Positions 2,460-37,429 of a DNA stretch of 64,000 nt are shown here, piece after piece. The stretch is from Tausonia pullulans. Taxonomy: Eukaryota > Basidiomycota > Tremellomycetes > Cystofilobasidiales > Mrakiaceae. The position numbers and the translations under genes are program-made. Under the pieces are notes generated by a model that was given only the letters and a program-made list of their open reading frames with translations, had not been told where the DNA came from and did not search any database. Numbering within the stretch: the stretch's first letter is position 1; each line of letters begins with the position of its first letter. The stretch covers positions 558,001 through 622,000 of the forward strand of contig OX637621.1 of NCBI GenBank assembly GCA_951802195.1. The letters are read 5' to 3'.

Positions 2460-4555
2460 ATGCTCTCCATTTACCGCGGCATCCTCTTCGGCCCTCATGC
2501 TTCCGTCAAGGCGGTAGACGCTCTGGGCCCTGTCTCTCTCGAAGACGCGCACGTCTACGCGTCCAAGGTGCTCAACTTCCTCTGGCAAGATTACCAGGCA
2601 TCCCGGCATGGACACGGGCATATGCATGGCACCGAGGGCAAGGTGGCCGCTGTCCCATCTCCGTCATCGTTAGACGAGTGTGCGAACCTCGTCCGGCAGC
2701 TCCTCACCATCCGCTTCCCAATCGCGCCTCTCCCGGACGACGTCCTGGCCGATATCGATGCCCTCTTAGCGTTCCAGTCGGCAGGCATCTCAGCAGGGCC
2801 CCTCGTCGCGGTGTCAGACCTTCAACCGCTGGCCTCTCTCTTGCCCTCATTGCCAGAGCAGCCCTTCTCTCGACTCTCCATCCATAAGGGGGACATCACC
2901 CGACTGGCCTCGCCGACTCTCGCCATCGTCAACCCGGCGAACCGAGCAATGCTGGGCTGCTTCCAGCCAACCCATTTGTGTGCCGACAACGTTGTCCACG
3001 CGGCTGCGGGACCTCGACTAAGGCAGGAGTGCTCCGACGTCATGAACGCTCTCGAGCTCGATGAGCTCGACGTAGGTGAGCCGATTGTCACCAATGGATG
3101 GCTCCTCCCGGCTGGCTTCGTCTTGCATGTGGCGGGGCCACAGCTTTCCCGGGGCACATATCCGACGGAGGAGGACAAGCAGGCTCTCGCTAGGTCCTAT
3201 GAGGCGTCCCTGGATCTGGCAGAAGAGGTGAGTTTGTGCCGCGCTCGTTATTGTGATCTCGTTCCTGACGGCTGACAAACACCTCCATTTTCGGCTCCCT
3301 TGGTCTCATAGGTCGGCGAGATTGACACGGTCGCCTTTCCATGTATTTCGACAGGGCTCTTCGCCTTCCCTTCGGACCTCGCAGCCTCCATCGCTCTCCG
3401 GACTGTTTCTGCCTGGTTGGACGCCCACCCGACCTCGACCGTCCAACGCGCGGTCTTGGTCCTCTTTTCCCCAAGTGATGTCGACCATTACGCCTCAGCC
3501 CTCCTTCAAACTTATCCATCTCTCTCGCTCCCGGACAACAAGAAGCTTGCCAGCCACTTCGCCCTGCCCCCACGCGTGCCAGGTCACGTTAGGGAGTGGG
3601 TCCGCGACGCCGACGCCGTCATCATCCACGCCGGAGCAGGTCTCTCTGCCGACGCTGTCTCGGTCAAGTACGGCCTTCCTCTGGATTACACCTCGACCAA
3701 TGTCTTCAAGGAACTCTACCCAGCGCTGCTCAATTCTACGGATATGAGGAGGCTCTACGACTCGATCGGATATCGGTTCCAGGATGTGAATCCGCCGTCG
3801 TCCGTTCTTTCTCGCTTTCCATCTCGCTGACTCTTTCTTTCGTCCTCTTCCCCCAGCCCCTCATCCAGTGGGCCTATATTCTAGGCCATGGCGCTGCTGT
3901 CACCTCCTGGGGTCCCACCCCCGTCTATACCCGGCTCCACGCGCTTGCCGCCTCGAAATCCAGCTACACCATCCTCACCTCCAACGCCGACACCCTCTTC
4001 GCCCAATCCGGTGGGTTCGACCCCTCCCGGATCTACACCCCTCAGGGCTCCTACGCCCACTTCCAGTGCCTCCGCCCCTGCTCGCCCGACAGCTTCTTCC
4101 CCTCCGCGCCCTGGATCGAGCGCGCGCTCGCGGTCTTCGACAAGGCCACGATGCGAATCCCCCCGGACCGCGCCGGCGAGCTCATCCCGCGGTGCGAACG
4201 CTGCGGCGGGGAGGTCTTCTACAACGTGCGCGGTGGGAACTGGTTTCTCGAGACACCGCAGGCAGGTCAGAGGGAGCGGTATGAAGCCCAGGTGAAGGAG
4301 ATGGTAGGGCGCGCGAGGGAGCGGGGGAAGAAGGTCGTCGTGCTCGAGTTGGGCGTCGGGTTCAACACGCCGAGTGTCGTTCGGTGGCCGAGCGAGCGGC
4401 TCGTCGAGGACGATGATGTGGACGGGGAGGTGGTGCGACTGATCAGGGTCAATCAACAGAGGGCGGAGGTCCCACTCGAGTTGGCAGGGACCGGGAGGGC
4501 GGTTGGGCTGAAGATGGGGGCGATGGAGTTCCTTCAAGCTCTGGATCTGCCATAG
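2460..4555 (+). CDS. Zinc-macrodomain / class-M sirtuin (SirTM) fusion protein
   Basis: Exons are 2460-3227, 3312-3785 and 3857-4555 (all phase 0), giving 646 residues. Residues 1-300 form a zinc-type macrodomain: an ADP-ribose-binding NPAN at 158-161, the zinc ligand motif GCFQPTHLC (C167, H172, C174), and the second loop CISTGLFAFP in exon 2. Residues of about 350-646 form a sirtuin: NAD-binding GAGLS at 364-368, TSNAD at 455-459 where deacetylase sirtuins have TQNID, glutamine 477 (TPQGSY) where they have the catalytic histidine, and zinc cysteines C485, C489, C527 and C530. These replacements mark class-M sirtuins, which ADP-ribosylate proteins in bacteria, and zinc-macrodomains remove such marks. 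Writer and eraser would therefore sit in one chain. Bacterial homologues act on lipoylated GcvH-like carriers; the fungal target is unknown. No targeting signal is obvious. The gene converges on the kinase gene at 4913. Confidence 0.93.
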
Positions 4556-4912: not shown

Positions 4913-7900
4913 TCACTGAAAGAGCAGACGATCAAGTCAGCATCACCCTCGAAGACTAGACAGACAGAATCGCGTAGACTCACAACGTAGACGAATCCCT
5001 CCCGCATCGGACTCTCCGCCTCCGGGGGGAAGCTCGCGGCCCACTCCCTCTTGAGGATCCCGTGGATCCATTTGAAGCTCGAAAGGGCGCCCTTCTCCTG
5101 GACCATGGTCATCGCCCCGCTCTTGCTGGTGAACTCGCACCGGAACCGCACGGCCTTCTGGACGGCGTTACCGCGGAACTCGCACCGGAGGGCGCTGCCC
5201 TCGTGCGGGTGGTGGCTCCCAGCGACATGGACCGAGAGCGACTCCAGGAGCTCGCGGGCCGTCGCGCGTGCCTGCGGGTGGTAGGGGAGCGTGTAGTGCG
5301 GGGCCTTGAAAGAGAAAAGGTTGTGGAACCACGAGGCCGACGAGTTGCCCTTGTCGCCTCCTCCGCCGGAGGACGACTTGCCAGAGTGATATGAGCCCGA
5401 GGAGTGCGAATGGAATGTCGACGTCGTTGTCGGTGTTTGGAGGCCAAACGTCGAGGCCGCGCTGAAAGGTGTGAATGGGGTATTGGGCGACGACGGGTAC
5501 CGGTCATGATTGTGGCCCGAGGTCAGATCGAGACCCTGAGTGAGATCCAGCGGGACTGGCTTGCGCGTCCGGGACGTTTTGACGGGAACCGTCAGAGCGA
5601 ACGTCGGCGAGTTGTTGCCCGTGGAGGTCGCCCGGATAGTTTCCCCAAGGGGAGGCCTCGGCGAGGTCGACGCAGATGATGACGCTGAGGCTCCGCTCTG
5701 TGCTGATCCCGTCCGGTAAGCTGCCGGGGGAGGCGAAGGAAGGGCAGAAGCAGACGAGGCCACAGGCGCGGGTGGGGCAGGCCTCGTCGGGTGAGGCTTG
5801 GTCGGGGTTCGCTCGATCGAGTGACGGACATGCGAAGGATACGAGGACGAGTGATGCGAGCTCGCCGACCCTCTGCGCGAGTCAGGCCCCATTCCATTCT
5901 CCTTCTCGCTATCATGGGCGCCATATGAGGACCCAGCGGACGGCGTCCGGTACGGCGCGTGCGGAGGTTGCTGCTGCGCCTGCGAGGGCTGATACGGCGG
6001 CTGCTGCGACTTGCCCGTCGACGACGACGCGACCGACGACGCAACCGACCACCGGGCGTTCTTATGCGGCGAGGGGGCCGGACGCGCTCCGGGAGGCAGG
6101 AGTGTCTCCCTTCCAGGTCCACGGAAGGACGAGGGAGGGAATGCATTGCCTCCTGCCCCGCCGATGCCGAGGCCGATGGCGGACCCGTGGTCGGAGCCGG
6201 CGTCCATCCATGAGCCTCCCGAGTTGTGCCGCGAGTCGTAAGTGTGCGCGTTTGAGTGAACGGAGCAGACGTCCGAGTTGTCGTTCTCGGCATCCTCAAA
6301 CTGATCGTCCGAAGGTAACGCGGACGAGTGAATCGAGGAGAACGCGGGCGTCATTGGCGTCATTGGTGTTATCGGCGCTGACCCAGGTGTCGCTCCAGTC
6401 GTTGCCACCGTCGACGTTCGGAAGGACGGCTGCTGGAGATACTGGGACGTGCTGACGGCACTGGCGGCAGGGGATGTCGCGCCGTAAGAGGAGTTGGAGA
6501 GGAGCGAGGACCTGTCCCCAGCCTGAGCGCCATTGATGCGCTGAGCGATGTCGTGGAGGAAGAGCTGCAGCTCCTCATTCTCGACATTCGGGACTGATAT
6601 CGGTGAGGGCGATGCGGGCGCACTCGACGCGAGGGGCAGGGAGAGGTGGTGCTGCTGGTGATACGAGTGACCGCCGTGCTGACTGCTCATGCCGTAAGGG
6701 TCGTGAGAGGTTGTTGACGACGAGGCGGAGCTCGAGTCAACGTTAAGAGGTAAGCGGTTAACGGGATCGCTGACGTGCCGGTGGTTGGGGCTTGGCTCCT
6801 GGAAGATAATCGCCGGGACGATGGCGCTGCCAGTGCCGAGGTCGGTCTGGGCCCGCGGCGAGAGCGGAGGTCGCGGTCCGACGGGGCTGCGCGGCGGAGG
6901 TGCGTGCTGCTGCTGCCTCGTCGTAGGCGGAGCGATTCGAAGCGGGGATAGCTGAACATCCCTCACTGCCGCGGGGGCCGAGACCGTTGCCGCCGATCCA
7001 GCGCTCGCCTTGGTCGGCGTGGGTCCCGCGGGACGGGGAGGCCGGACGGGCGACGAGGGTGTTGACCTTTCGGCTTCCTCGATGCGAGCGACTGCCTGCC
7101 GAGCGGCCTCGGCATGATTGACCACCGTCGCGCTTGTCTTGCGGCGGTGCTGGGAGACAACGTGCCTACGGGTACCCTTGTCGGGAGGCGGTTCCTTGTC
7201 CATGTTAAAGTTCTCGAAATTCTTGGCCCGGTACTCCTGAAGAAGGTGGTAGATAGCCTTCTCCCATGTAGACTCGCGGCTGAGGAGACCCTCGACGATG
7301 CTCGTGTCCTCCTTGTTGTTTGTGTGGAAAAGCGTTCGGAGGTTGCGGAGGATTTCGGGGTCAATCTCATCCGCACTGTTGACGGGCCGTTCAATCTCCT
7401 GAATCGACGGTGGGCGGACGACATCCCGGCCCTGGATCCGACGGGGGGCAACCGAGAGGAAGAATGGATGCCGGATGATGCCCTCAATCTGAAGACGAAG
7501 CGTGCGAGTCAGCAGGGAAGGTGTTCTGTCTGCCTCGTGGAGGCAACAGGCAAGGCAAAACTCACGGTGATGCGCGTGTCTGGGTTGCTGTCGAGCATCC
7601 GGTAGAGCAGGTCCCGCGCAGACCCCCGAATCTCATCCGGCATCTCGAATCGGCCAATCTTGACCTTCTGGAGGAGAACCTGGATGTTCTCATCGTCGAA
7701 AGGCAACCGGCCCGAGAGAAGCGCGAAGAGAATGACACCGCAGGACCAGATATCGGACGAGGCACCGTTGTACGCTTTACCCGCAACAATCTCAGGGCTC
7801 GCGTAGTGAGGGCTTCCGCAGGACGTCTCGAGGAGCTGTTCACCGGCCTGCCAGGCGGCCATGCCAAAATCAGCAACCTTGATGTTCTTGTCCTGGTCGA

Positions 7901-9162
7901 GAAGGAGGTTCTCAGGCCTGGAGGGGTCGAAGTCAGCTGGCTGTCTTCAGAGCAAGCGGGTGAAAGGGGCAGGCGAGCGAACGACGCACTTCAAATCGCG
8001 GTGGCAGATGTTGAACCGGTGACAATAGTCGACAGCGTGGATGAGTTGCTGGAAGTAATGGAGTGCCTCGGCCGGGGGGAGCCGTCCCCGTGAGACGAGG
8101 TAGTCGAAGAGCTCGCCGCCCGAGACGTACTCCATGATAATGTACCTTTTGGGGAGAGCTAGTTTCAGTACACGCCTGCACGGTCGAAACGATCGCAGCT
8201 CACTGACAGGTCGCCATTGGTCTCCCAGACATCGTAGAGGTTCATCACGTTCGGGTGGTCAATAAGCTTCATGATAATGATCTCGCGCTCGATGCCGAGA
8301 AGGATCTTCTCGGCCTTGTTGCCGGCCTCGTTGATCGACATCCGCGAGTTGATGAGAGCGTGTTTGGGGACGATCTTGATTGCCGCGAGCTGGCCCGTGA
8401 CGGCGTGCTTGGCTATCTTGACGCGGCCTGAAGATGAGAAATGACCGTGGGCAAGCCAGCGCGCGTATGCATGCGTGTGGGCATGGGTCAGCCTGCAAGA
8501 TCCACGGTCCAAGAGCAAGAGGGACATGGACAGGGCCATCCACCCGGAGCCAGAGAGACCGCCATCCTCCGTTCGTTAGATGAGCAGGACTGCACCAGAC
8601 ATGGATGACATGACGGGGACAGCTCGAGCGATCAAGCAGCTGGGAAGGTCGGGGTGTCCCAGCCACCATCGCGCTATCGCCCTCCGCCCGCCTTCAATCC
8701 GCCTTGCCCGCGCCCGTCAGGCGCGCGTCCATCCATCGTTCAGGAGCGAGGGAAGGGCGCGCGCGAGAGGAAAGCGGACGTTATCGAGCTCGCACAGTTG
8801 AGCTTGATCACAGACAAGAGCAAGCAGCCCCAAGAATAGAGAGAAATGAACAAGCAACGGAGATTTACGAGGCACTCACCCGACGAGCCCTTGCCAATAG
8901 TCCTGCCGATCCTCCACTGGCCGATCTTCCGAGCGTCTTCCTTCTTCTCGCCGGCCTTTTTGAGCGGTCGAGTCTCGACTGGAGCACGAGGCTTATTGCT
9001 TGAGTGGGGGCGAGGCTGGTCATGCTGCTGTGGTTGGTGTTGTTGTTGTTGCTGCTGCTGCTGCTGGGGACGCGAACGAGGCTGGTGTTGTGACCCGCTG
9101 GCCGCTGGAGGGGCTGGTGCCGGCCGTGGGGGGGCATAGGTACTGGTGCCGGGACGGGACAT
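4913..9162 (-). CDS. GIN4: Gin4/Cdr2 (Nim1-related) serine/threonine protein kinase
   Basis: Six coding exons: 9162-8880, 8427-8208, 8145-7990, 7917-7566, 7488-4984 and a last piece at 4915-4913 consisting only of the TGA stop. The product is 1172 residues. The N-terminus is glutamine- and proline-rich. The kinase domain (about 82-345) has GKGSSG, HRDLKPENLL, DFGMA and [10 protein letters not shown] long disordered S/P-rich region follows, and the C-terminus (about 1075-1172) resembles a KA1 membrane-binding domain. In yeasts, Gin4, Hsl1, Kcc4 and Cdr2 link septin assembly and cell size to Wee1 control at the bud neck or cell middle. The exact paralogue (Gin4 or Hsl1) cannot be fixed from sequence alone. 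The start is the first ATG of the kinase frame. Confidence 0.9.
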
Positions 9163-33367: not shown

Positions 33368-34294
33368 GACAGTTGAGAGAGGAGAGAAGCTGATGGGCGC
33401 AAGGTCAGGCGAGCTCCCGACGAGCAATGAAGGGTAATTGGACGCACAGATAGGGTGAGAGGAGTCGGTACGATCAGAGTCGGGGCGAGAGACGCGAGCC
33501 AGCTGTCGTATAACGAGTCTGTCCAGCGCTGAAGCAAAGTGCGATCGAGTCCAGGAAGTGCATGTCAGTTGACTTAATGATCCTTTCGTGCGCCGTTCTC
33601 TCCAGACCAGGTGGTAGAGTCGGGCTTGCTCCAGAGAGAGCGAGGCCGACGCGGACTACCGCTGCAAAAGACGTACGCGGCGGGAGGGGTCGGGCGAGGT
33701 GGAGGGAGGTGCGCGACCGAGCGAGCGACCTTGAGGGTAGCGAAGGGGCTGCGGGAGCGGGGTAGGCCTTTCAGTCTTAAGGTTTCGACGGTGGTGAGAG
33801 TCGCAGGAGGGTCTCGGACGGACGAGAAGGGCGTGAGAGAGAAGGGCAGGCGGTCGACGTCGAGAGACGCGGCGGCCCTTTTCTCGCCTGGCTTCCTCCC
33901 GCCAGTCCCCTTGCTCGCGACGCTACCTGCCTTCTAGGCCCGTGCACCTCACAACGACTGGAGCGTAAGAGATTGATCATGAAAAGAGAAGGGCAGGGCT
34001 TGCAAGAGAGGATGGACTAGAGTGTATATGCCTCAGGGGGGGGGTACTCGAGCCGGCCTCAGGCAATGCGTCAGGAGTGAGCGTCGGCTAGAATCCTGAC
34101 AGGCCTGTATACCGGATCATGCAGTGGGCGTCCATTAATCGTCCAGTATGATAAACTTTCGATCTCGTCAATTGAGGTCATCAAGGACGTCCAAGCGGAG
34201 AGAGATTGCGGAAGCTATCGATGTCGGGGATGGGTGTTAGCTGCGCCACAAACAACCACCAACCAAAAGTCGAGTCGGATACTACAAAAACATT
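33368..34294. other. Upstream region of the uL24m gene
   Basis: No coding region is supported. The first 550 bases are GC-rich and probably the promoter and leader; composition drops towards the tRNA gene at 34295. Confidence 0.45.
34286..34290 (-). terminator. Pol III terminator of left tRNA-Asn
   Basis: Five A residues on the plus strand give TTTTT on the transcribed minus strand, four bases beyond the tRNA 3' end. Confidence 0.75.
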
Positions 34295-34367
34295 CTCTCA
34301 GCGACGGGTTCGAACCGTCGACCTACAGATTAACAGTCTGACGCTCTACCAACTGAGCTAGCCGAGA
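34295..34367 (-). tRNA. tRNA-Asn (anticodon GTT), left copy
   Basis: A 73-base cloverleaf: acceptor stem TCTCGGC/GCTGAGA with one G-T pair, discriminator G as expected for asparagine, D-arm AGCTCAGTTGGTAGAGC, anticodon loop CTGTTAA with GTT, and T-arm GGTTCGAACCC (A and B boxes intact). No intron. It is identical to the copy at 35721-35793 on the other strand. Confidence 0.97.
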
Positions 34368-35720
34368 AAATTCGGGCACAATCCGAAAGCGGTGTCAAAT
34401 GCTGCGGAGTGTGTCAGCCAGTGCACCTAAGTCCGCTACAAGAAATTCCAGACCGACCTTTCTCTCCCCCTATCTAGCTACGACTCACCATCTCTCAATG
34501 GGTTAGCTCGTCCTCTACGTATGACTCATGACTTAAATACAAAAAAACCTTTCACAGCAACGGCACGCGATGTTCTATCTGTCTACCTACTCATATTGAG
34601 TCTTTCTTTCATTTCGTCAGAGAGCCCTGTCTATGGGTCCCGCTCCCTCCCATTGACATGTTCGTTGTACTTTTCACTTGCGGGTGGTACGGTGATCAGA
34701 ATACAAAATGATACTCTCAGCTATCCGTTTTCTCTTTGTGTTTCCCCTCTTCTATCCCTACTTTCTGTACTTCCATCCACCCCTCCCCCTTTTCCCTTCC
34801 TCACTTTTCTTCCTCATCGAACCGCTTTCGGGAGGCCGCGAGCGATAGCGCTCCTTCCTCCCCATCCCTTCCACTTTATCCCATTGGCCATCGTCAATAT
34901 ATTTTTAAATTTCAAATGAGTTGATGGTTAGACTACACAAGGGAAGGATGGGAGAGTGAATGAGCCAGGCGGGAGGCGACACGTTGGGCGGGCTTGCCAA
35001 GGATGTGATGTCGAGGCGGACGCGTATTGCACGAGGAGGCTCGAAGGGGTCTATGATAGCAGAGAGGATATCGCTGTTTACAGAGTAGACCGTTCTCCCC
35101 CATGGCCACACGTCCTAAAAGCTAGCATCTAGGTAAAGCTCATTATCCCAGGCGTCCGAGAGTAGTCGCGCCATCGGGCGGAGAAGATAAGTCGCCGCTG
35201 GCAGCTTAGGCGTTGATATTCTGCTTAGAGATTAATGCTTCATATTCGCTCGTACGTAAATGATGGAGGTATAGAACGGAAGTGTTCGTTTTCGACGATC
35301 CACCCTTGGTTCAAGCGACGGATCTGGAGGTGGCGGGTTGAGACCCGCAGGTTCAGGAATCAACCGGGTGGCAATGGAGCAGAGCATCGAACTGAAGACG
35401 CGATGTTTTTTTTGTATCCAGGTCACGAGTTATACGTAGAGGACGGGATAACCCTATGAGAGATAGCGAGTGGTAGCTAGATAGAGGGAGAGCGGACAAG
35501 ACCGAGCGCGAGAACGTCGGCCGAGGCGCCATGGGAAGGGGGTTAGTCGAACCACTGGGGATGGTGGTTGGCGATGACCTGAAGCATTGTGCCGCCAGAC
35601 CTAGTCCATTGTGACACGTCTACTGAGCACAGCAGCTGACGAAACCTGGTCCGAGTAGACCCGAACAGACTTGAATCTGCCGCAGCGCTGGACATTTATT
35701 ATGTGAATCGTTTCAAGTCT
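34368..35720. other. Spacer between two inverted tRNA-Asn genes
   Basis: This 1.35 kb holds no supported gene, no terminal repeats and no element that I can identify. It is less GC-rich than the gene regions, especially 34500-34920. Confidence 0.5.
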
Positions 35721-35793
35721 TCTCGGCTAGCTCAGTTGGTAGAGCGTCAGACTGTTAATCTGTAGGTCGACGGTTCGAACCCGTCGCTGAGAG
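35721..35793 (+). tRNA. tRNA-Asn (anticodon GTT), right copy
   Basis: It has the same 73 bases as the left copy, on the opposite strand, with intact internal promoter boxes and no intron. The flanks of the two genes are not similar, so only the gene body is duplicated at the level I can see. Confidence 0.97.
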
Positions 35794-37429
35794 GTATATT
35801 TTGGTCCGAGACCCTAGCAATTCGGTGCAGAGAGGAAATGAATGGCTCGTTGGGGGAACACCATTTAGCCTTCCGATTGGGCTCAAAACAATGTATGGAA
35901 GGCATAAAAGTCCTGCTTGGAAGGGCCCGCGAGACGGAGGCAGAAACGGTGAAGTTGAAGGGCATGCTTGAGAAACAGAACGGCCACGATAGCGCTGGAT
36001 CGAGCAGGGTGAGTGAAAAGAGCCGATTGCTGACCAAGTACAAAGCGGGAGAACAGGACCAAGGGAACACGAATCGGAAATGGGTGACCAGCTGGCCCTC
36101 GATCCATCGCTTGATTCATCGTTTTCAGAGCATTCTGCCCTTCCACCATTCTGCCGCACACCAGGTCAAGCAGCATGCCATCCAACCCCGTCCTGATTTC
36201 CAATAGGAAAGAAAACAGGACAGCGCGGCATGGAAGGGCCTGGCAACACAAGGCTACAGTGCAGCGCCGAGGTCATCGTGCCGGCGAGTCGTGCAAGTAG
36301 AGGACGCCGCCAGTGGGCAAGGCAAAAAAAAGATGGAAACCAAAATGGGCTCGGTGGACCTATATAAGTGATTGAAATTATAATAAACTATACTACACAT
36401 GATCTAGGCCAAATGGCCAGAGACCTCTCCACCCTCCGATTCCTCCTCCCCCTTCTGTCCACTCTTTCTAAAATGGAAATTCTTGCATTACCATCCCCTC
36501 ATCCACCCCCTCCCCATCTGTATAGTCCCCTCCCCTCTCCCTAGCTAGGTTATCTCTTCCTTCCCCCCGCTCGCTGTCTCTCATAGGGCCATACTGCCCT
36601 CCACGCTTGATCAATGACTGAAATACGGAAACTTTGGACGCCATATATCAACTAGCCTAATCTGGCCTACGAGGACAGAGAGTTGTGGACCTCCCACCTT
36701 GATCTCGACGTTCATACAGGACCTCCTTGGTGACCTCGATTCTCGTCAGAGAGAAGCGTATTCGGCATGTCCTTATCAGACTGGATCTTCTTGGCCCTGA
36801 TCGGCAATCCAGGAGCGGGGCCTAGTGGGTCTGGGCCTGCACACAGGGGGAGAGCACAGCCGCGATCTGAACCTCCTGTTGAGACTTAAACTCGTCCGTA
36901 AGATCCCATCGGCTTGCAAGGAGGAGCCAGCCTTCAACTTTTACATAAAGAATCTGGATGACTGGACCTAAAGAGACAAAGGCGGGAAGATGGACCAGAG
37001 AGAATAACCACTTCGTTGAGCAGAAGGAGATGAGCATAAGTGAGTCCTTTGATGAGAGACGGAAATGGAGACGTCGTGCGTGCGAGGGCATCAGTTATCC
37101 GCAGCCGACGTGTACATTTGAGAGGACCTAAACTGCCTTTGCTTGCTCATGCCAAAGGCTACGTGCCCACTGCGGGAAGAGACCTTATTTTCAGTTGATG
37201 ACCAGACATCGGGTGATTATTGCACTCTATTGAACATCCTCATGGTGCCTCACGCGACCCGCTGATCCTTTTGTCCGTCCATTCGTTCTTAGGTCGGTGT
37301 TGACTTCCCCTTTGCTGGAAGTACCCCCAGCGTCTTCATACGCAGATATCGCACACCAAGGCTCAGTACGACGGGACGTCACGACCCTGTAATCTAGTAA
37401 GCAAACAAGCGTCCTCCAACCGATACATC
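35794..37429. other. Gene-poor region right of the tRNA pair
   Basis: About 1.6 kb with only short chance reading frames. There is a TATATAA near 36361 with no gene that clearly belongs to it, and a pyrimidine-rich patch at 36420-36600. The right end is the 3' flank of the methyltransferase. Confidence 0.45.
35799..35802 (+). terminator. Pol III terminator of right tRNA-Asn
   Basis: A TTTT run lies five bases after the tRNA 3' end. Confidence 0.65.

Follow-up and report, generated by a model that had tools for sequence, protein, structure and literature searches.

We consider here a stretch of 64,000 nucleotides from the basidiomycete Tausonia pullulans (GenBank assembly GCA_951802195.1, contig OX637621.1, positions 558,001 to 622,000, forward strand), referred to below as the window, and a gene near its beginning, mfs1. 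Judging from its sequence, this gene very probably encodes an Mfs1, that is, one polypeptide carrying an ADP-ribosyl writer, a class M sirtuin (SirTM), together with its eraser, a zinc-macrodomain. The macrodomain-fused SirTM architecture was given the name Mfs1 by Rack et al. (2015, PMC4518038).

The mfs1 gene and its predicted product

The gene model is as follows, all features lying on the plus strand:

2460..4555, +: mfs1 gene, from the ATG at 2460 to the end of the stop codon at 4555; three exons, predicted product of 646 residues
2460..3227, +: exon 1, residues 1-256; helical N-terminal part and the majority of the zinc-macrodomain
3228..3311, +: intron 1, 84 nt, phase 0, GTGAGT...CATAG
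3312..3785, +: exon 2, residues 257-414; C-terminus of the macrodomain and N-terminus of the SirTM, with the fusion joint inside
3786..3856, +: intron 2, 71 nt, phase 0, GTGAAT...CCCAG
3857..4555, +: exon 3, residues 415-646 and stop; remainder of the SirTM

A CTGAC branch-point-like motif is found in each of the two introns. Alignment to basidiomycete homologues agrees with the start codon, with each intron and with the joint, and the model matches the three exons and phase-0 junctions that an earlier note on this DNA had proposed. An upstream in-frame start near 2190 was considered and rejected; the frame is open there, but the homologues begin at the position of the ATG at 2460. Because exon 2 alone, without a stop, encodes both the macrodomain C-terminus and the GAGLS motif of the sirtuin, the fusion does not depend on the splice prediction.

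When the product was compared with the sequences of the PDB by phmmer, the Mfs1 of Fusarium oxysporum f. sp. cubense (Foc1Mfs1, crystal structure 8RSN; chain 8rsn_A) was matched over residues 76-627 with an E-value of 1.1e-100; Zn-macrodomains of bacteria and archaea gave E-values from 2e-39 to 5.6e-34, and SpySirTM (5a3a) gave 4.9e-15. The Pfam Macro model matches residues 157-284 (E 1.2e-22), and the NCBIfam protein-ADP-ribose hydrolase model NF003163 matches residues 63-321 with an E-value of 4.2e-55, its 187 bits to be read against a curated cut-off of 272. The general Pfam SIR2 model gives no match to the sirtuin half at an E-value threshold of 0.001, which counts against the identification, and a genome-wide SIR2 search likewise misses mfs1, its four matches lying on other contigs; this half was identified through its similarity to SirTMs, and it can be aligned both to SpySirTM and to the corresponding part of the Fusarium protein. 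A Zn-macrodomain and a class M sirtuin thus stand in a single polypeptide. Structure comparison and a survey of fungi, both suggested by the earlier note, point the same way: the predicted fold of a close homologue resembles full-length 8RSN, and full-length fusions are present in many fungi.

Two active sites and an extended NAD-side loop

The residues expected of both active sites are found in the product, again on the plus strand:

2706..2708, +: Thr83, which pairwise alignments, as we read them, place opposite SauMacro Asn46 and Foc1Mfs1 Cys61
2931..2942, +: NPAN, a NAAN-type motif, residues 158-161
2958..2981, +: zinc loop CFQPTHLC, residues 167-174; ligands by homology Cys167, His172 and Cys174
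2985..2999, +: Dx3H dyad Asp176...His180 (D176-NVV-H180)
3633..3647, +: GAGLS, the sirtuin motif binding nicotinamide adenine dinucleotide (NAD), residues 364-368
3657..3677, +: seven-residue extension of the NAD-side loop, lineage-specific, about residues 372-378
3977..3991, +: TSNAD, residues 455-459; Asn457 and Asp459 align with SpySirTM Asn118 and Asp120
4037..4054, +: TPQGSY, residues 475-480; Gln477 (SpySirTM Gln137) in place of the catalytic His of other sirtuins
4067..4081, +: first SirTM cysteine pair, Cys485 and Cys489
4193..4204, +: second SirTM cysteine pair, Cys527 and Cys530
4229..4231, +: Arg539, aligning with SpySirTM Arg192
4352..4372, +: GVGFNTP, residues 580-586, the class M GVGx[NT]TP diphosphate motif

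The earlier note had rested its claim of a zinc-macrodomain and a class-M sirtuin in one polypeptide on NPAN, GCFQPTHLC (residues 166-174), GAGLS, TSNAD, TPQGSY and four cysteines; all are present in the 646-residue product, and together with the PDB matches and the joint inside exon 2 they bear the claim out. The macrodomain half has the eight-residue Cys/His/Cys zinc loop and the Dx3H dyad of the Zn-Macro proteins. The other half has the QG of class M sirtuins (Gln477) instead of the catalytic HG, the GVGx[NT]TP motif, and residues corresponding to Asn118, Asp120 and Arg192 of SpySirTM, an enzyme in which Arg192 contacts Gln137 (PMC4518038). The catalytic histidine of a canonical deacylase is absent, Gln477 occupying its position, and we rejected a deacylase sirtuin on this ground. 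Conservation was counted in those 168 aligned sequences that have one of the two main loop lengths described below (24 long, 144 short); 13 of 181 rows were left out, four with other loop lengths and nine unmeasured. His172 is kept in 165 of the 168, Gln477 in 166 and the SirTM cysteines in all 168, and in the rows left out Gln477 is present in 4/4 with other loop lengths and 3/9 of the unmeasured, the others being mostly gaps.

The position of SauMacro Asn46 and Foc1Mfs1 Cys61, which supports the zinc loop (PMC11490716), is occupied by Thr in 20/24 long-loop proteins, Cys in 114/144 short-loop proteins and Val in 8/10 of an oomycete-like group. Because the long-loop proteins mostly have Thr and the oomycete-like ones Val, the published Asn-to-Cys exchange does not hold across the whole Mfs1 branch.

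In the product, 13 residues separate the GAGLS serine from the LDY tyrosine. The homologue sample for the loop counts consisted of 103 listed sequences, 120 listed of 439 and 120 listed of 1557, and the length could be measured by alignment in 284 of 301 sequences, the other 17 being fragments, non-family hits or odd motifs; of these unmeasured ones P0093, P0108 and P0109 have a long loop, and P0039 and P0062 a short one. Six residues were counted in 229 sequences, 7 in 18, 9 in 2, 12 in 1 and 13 in 34. The last set comprises the window protein, 11 named Microbotryomycetes, 10 named Mycena, 4 metagenome sequences and 8 stand-alone SirTMs, seven of these from named bdelloid rotifers and one unnamed; among the labels Meredithblackwellia and M. 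galericulata were checked, and the other long-loop genera so labelled we take to belong to the class Microbotryomycetes. The single 12-residue sequence, P0206 from a metagenome, groups with the basidiomycete long-loop sequences in a 138-row tree. The basidiomycetes Exidia, Auricularia and Neolentinus have the short loop, and none of the measured sequences from ascomycetes, oomycetes, chytrids or bacteria carries the long one. In the alignment with SpySirTM the extension lies directly before the position of Phe42, a nicotinamide contact in that enzyme (PMC4518038). The structure model of P0001 has a short beta-bridge in the extension (residues 363-364 with 369-370; predicted local distance difference test, pLDDT, of the block 93), and that of the rotifer protein P0195 has one at the equivalent place (residues 34 and 39; block pLDDT 95).

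The basidiomycete long-loop rows form one group with a Shimodaira-Hasegawa-like approximate likelihood ratio (SH-aLRT) support of 100 (23 rows) in a tree of full-length proteins with thinly filled columns dropped. With the loop columns cut out they again do so, at 100 in the 138-row quick tree (27 rows) and at 100/100 in a 55-row careful tree (11 rows). Their relation to the rotifer sequences varies among the 138-, 71- and 55-row trees, all built on chosen subsets of 284 aligned SirTM domains: a supported branch separates the two in the 138-row tree (SH-aLRT 95), they are joined with a support of 10 in the 71-row quick tree, and they are not joined in the 55-row tree, where joining is not rejected by the approximately unbiased (AU) test (p-AU 0.499). 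The rotifer proteins (P0193, P0195, P0199, P0201-P0203 and P0205, from Didymodactylos, Rotaria and Adineta) have a GAGLSASAVNPQYGVGLDYT-like extended loop of equal length and, unlike the window protein, no macrodomain in the same polypeptide; Didymodactylos also encodes P0039, a fused Mfs1 with the short loop. Four metagenome fusions, P0082, P0092, P0094 and P0095, stand beside the long-loop group in the full-length tree (support 84) and group with stand-alone SirTMs in the 138-row tree. They belong to a separate SirTM group, some of its members fused and others standing alone, whose loop has 7 residues and is of the GAGMSVKxGEMVY type; the group also includes P0185-P0189, the diatom Pseudictyota (P0187) among them, and others.

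Perhaps the Mfs1 of Microbotryomycetes and Mycena and the bdelloid SirTMs constitute a separate long-loop type of class M enzyme, descended from one ancestral long-loop enzyme with partial gene transfer, in which a conserved seven-residue beta-hairpin by the nicotinamide-contact residue would serve as a lid and select another acceptor or change the use of NAD; taken as a whole, we hold this scenario to be rather unlikely. We found no description of the loop extension, the long-loop subgroup or its rotifer counterpart in the portions of the SirTM and Mfs1 literature consulted, and none of the papers searched deals with SirTM together with a basidiomycete or a rotifer.

Proposed activity and its alternatives

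The chemistry of each half has been published for relatives (PMC4518038, PMC11490716); for the window protein the activity, target, regulation and compartment are inferred. It is most likely a mono-ADP-ribose writer and eraser, and probably cytosolic. The SirTM half would bind NAD+, with Gln477, Asn457 and Arg539 replacing the deacylase histidine, and would transfer ADP-ribose to an acceptor side chain, probably Asp or Glu, of a target protein. The zinc-macrodomain half would then bind the tag, the Zn2+ held by Cys167, His172 and Cys174 polarising the glycosidic bond and a phosphate-bound water cleaving it. The fusion would fix writer and eraser at a 1:1 ratio and allow the tag to be set and cleared at one place, probably under oxidative stress. 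In Candida albicans the gene is induced by oxidative stress and its deletion leads to better growth in peroxide (PMC4518038), suggesting by analogy a redox role for Mfs1. With both active sites apparently intact, the self-contained reversible switch envisaged by the earlier note is plausible.

Several points weigh against this writer-eraser reading. The Fusarium Mfs1 macrodomain binds zinc weakly, about 75% less than SauMacro (PMC11490716), and therefore the eraser half may be weak; the loop extension and Thr83 are unlike the Fusarium protein, and therefore the chemistry may differ. In addition, the structure model is that of a homologue rather than of the spliced window protein itself.

Among the alternatives, the SirTM half might be mainly an NAD+ hydrolase that lacks a protein target, the macrodomain then serving to read ADP-ribose or to clear it away. 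Certain other sirtuin relatives are mainly NADases (PMC12700824), and the loop adjoining the nicotinamide pocket is altered in the long-loop clade; however, the residues linked to transfer in SpySirTM are kept in the window protein and the bacterial SirTMs tested are transferases (PMC4518038, PMC11490716), and we consider this reading improbable. A writer-eraser pair might alternatively act on a lipoylated GcvH-L-type carrier, as it does in the bacterial system (PMC4518038), a parallel drawn in the earlier note. The genome searched (23.86 Mb in 21 contigs, the window lying on contig C2) does contain matches to GcvH, all at a single place on C20, and to proteins of the lipoate-ligase type, these at two places, on C7 and C8. 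Yet these show no local linkage to mfs1, and no conserved mitochondrial presequence was seen in the homologue alignment, inspected by eye rather than with a predictor. Moreover, when macrodomains from fused Mfs1 proteins were assayed in vitro, they failed to remove the modification from SpyGcvH-L but were active on Glu/Asp-modified PARP1 (PMC11490716). The parallel is not supported by these results, and such a carrier seems to us very improbable as the target. That two adjacent genes were misread as one we dismiss almost entirely, the end of the macrodomain and the start of the sirtuin lying within exon 2 with no stop between and full-length fusions, one of them crystallised, occurring in many fungi.

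We thus retain a writer and eraser in one polypeptide, its target probably being other than a GcvH-L-type lipoyl carrier; as of 2024 no natural target had been established for fungal Mfs1 (PMC11490716). The long-loop clade offers a natural comparison of two active-site shapes in one enzyme family. Some genera of Microbotryomycetes yeasts lend themselves well to laboratory work, and the Mfs1 copy there is therefore a plain place to seek the natural target.

Surroundings of the gene and relation to known systems

The matches to GcvH, lipoate ligase and old yellow enzyme all fall outside the 64-kb window, and neither they nor the Pfam scan described below revealed a local operon-like gene cluster; among the old-yellow-enzyme matches listed, the nearest precedes the window by about 117 kb on C2. 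The macrodomain search of the genome returned mfs1 and one other locus, seen as two matches on contig C1 (1126276-1126764, minus strand). Four neighbouring minus-strand open reading frames (ORFs) were scanned with Pfam: a protein kinase was recognised in two, the ORF at 7509-7946 and, more weakly, that at 8165-8575, one of them below the curated cut-off; the remaining two gave no match. A protein kinase gene thus appears to lie convergent with mfs1 at about 4950-8900 of the window on the minus strand, its extent estimated by eye. Two tRNA-Asn (GTT) genes stand on opposite strands 1.35 kb apart, at 34294-34368 (minus) and 35720-35794 (plus).

Elsewhere in the family, a quick tree places the Mfs1 sequences of the basidiomycetes Exidia and Auricularia (P0119, P0123) among those of ascomycetes, next to Lasiodiplodia, Diplodia and Macrophomina (SH-aLRT 99), a position that hints at gene transfer. 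Some Aspergillus entries of about 1010-1060 residues (P0064, P0134, P0144, P0178) combine the macrodomain with a zinc-cluster transcription factor (PF00172, PF04082) and may be merged gene models.

The fusion as such has been described before, as the earlier note had guessed, and a specialist would not find it surprising; beyond its naming (PMC4518038), fungal Mfs1 was treated in Ariza 2024 (PMC11490716). Ours is a sound observation on a known type of protein. With Foc1Mfs1 (8RSN) and C. albicans orf19.2285 the window protein shares its domain order, zinc loop, Dx3H, QG, GVGxNTP and the four SirTM cysteines; it differs from the Fusarium protein in the seven additional residues of the NAD-side loop, in Thr83 in place of Cys61 and in NPAN in place of a NAAN-type motif. 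Compared with the extended SirTM operon of Streptococcus and Staphylococcus (GcvH-L, Zn-Macro, SirTM, LplA2), both enzyme halves are homologous (8rsm, 5kiv, 5a3a), but here they form a single polypeptide with no linked carrier or lipoate ligase gene, the matches to these lying on C20, C7 and C8 only.
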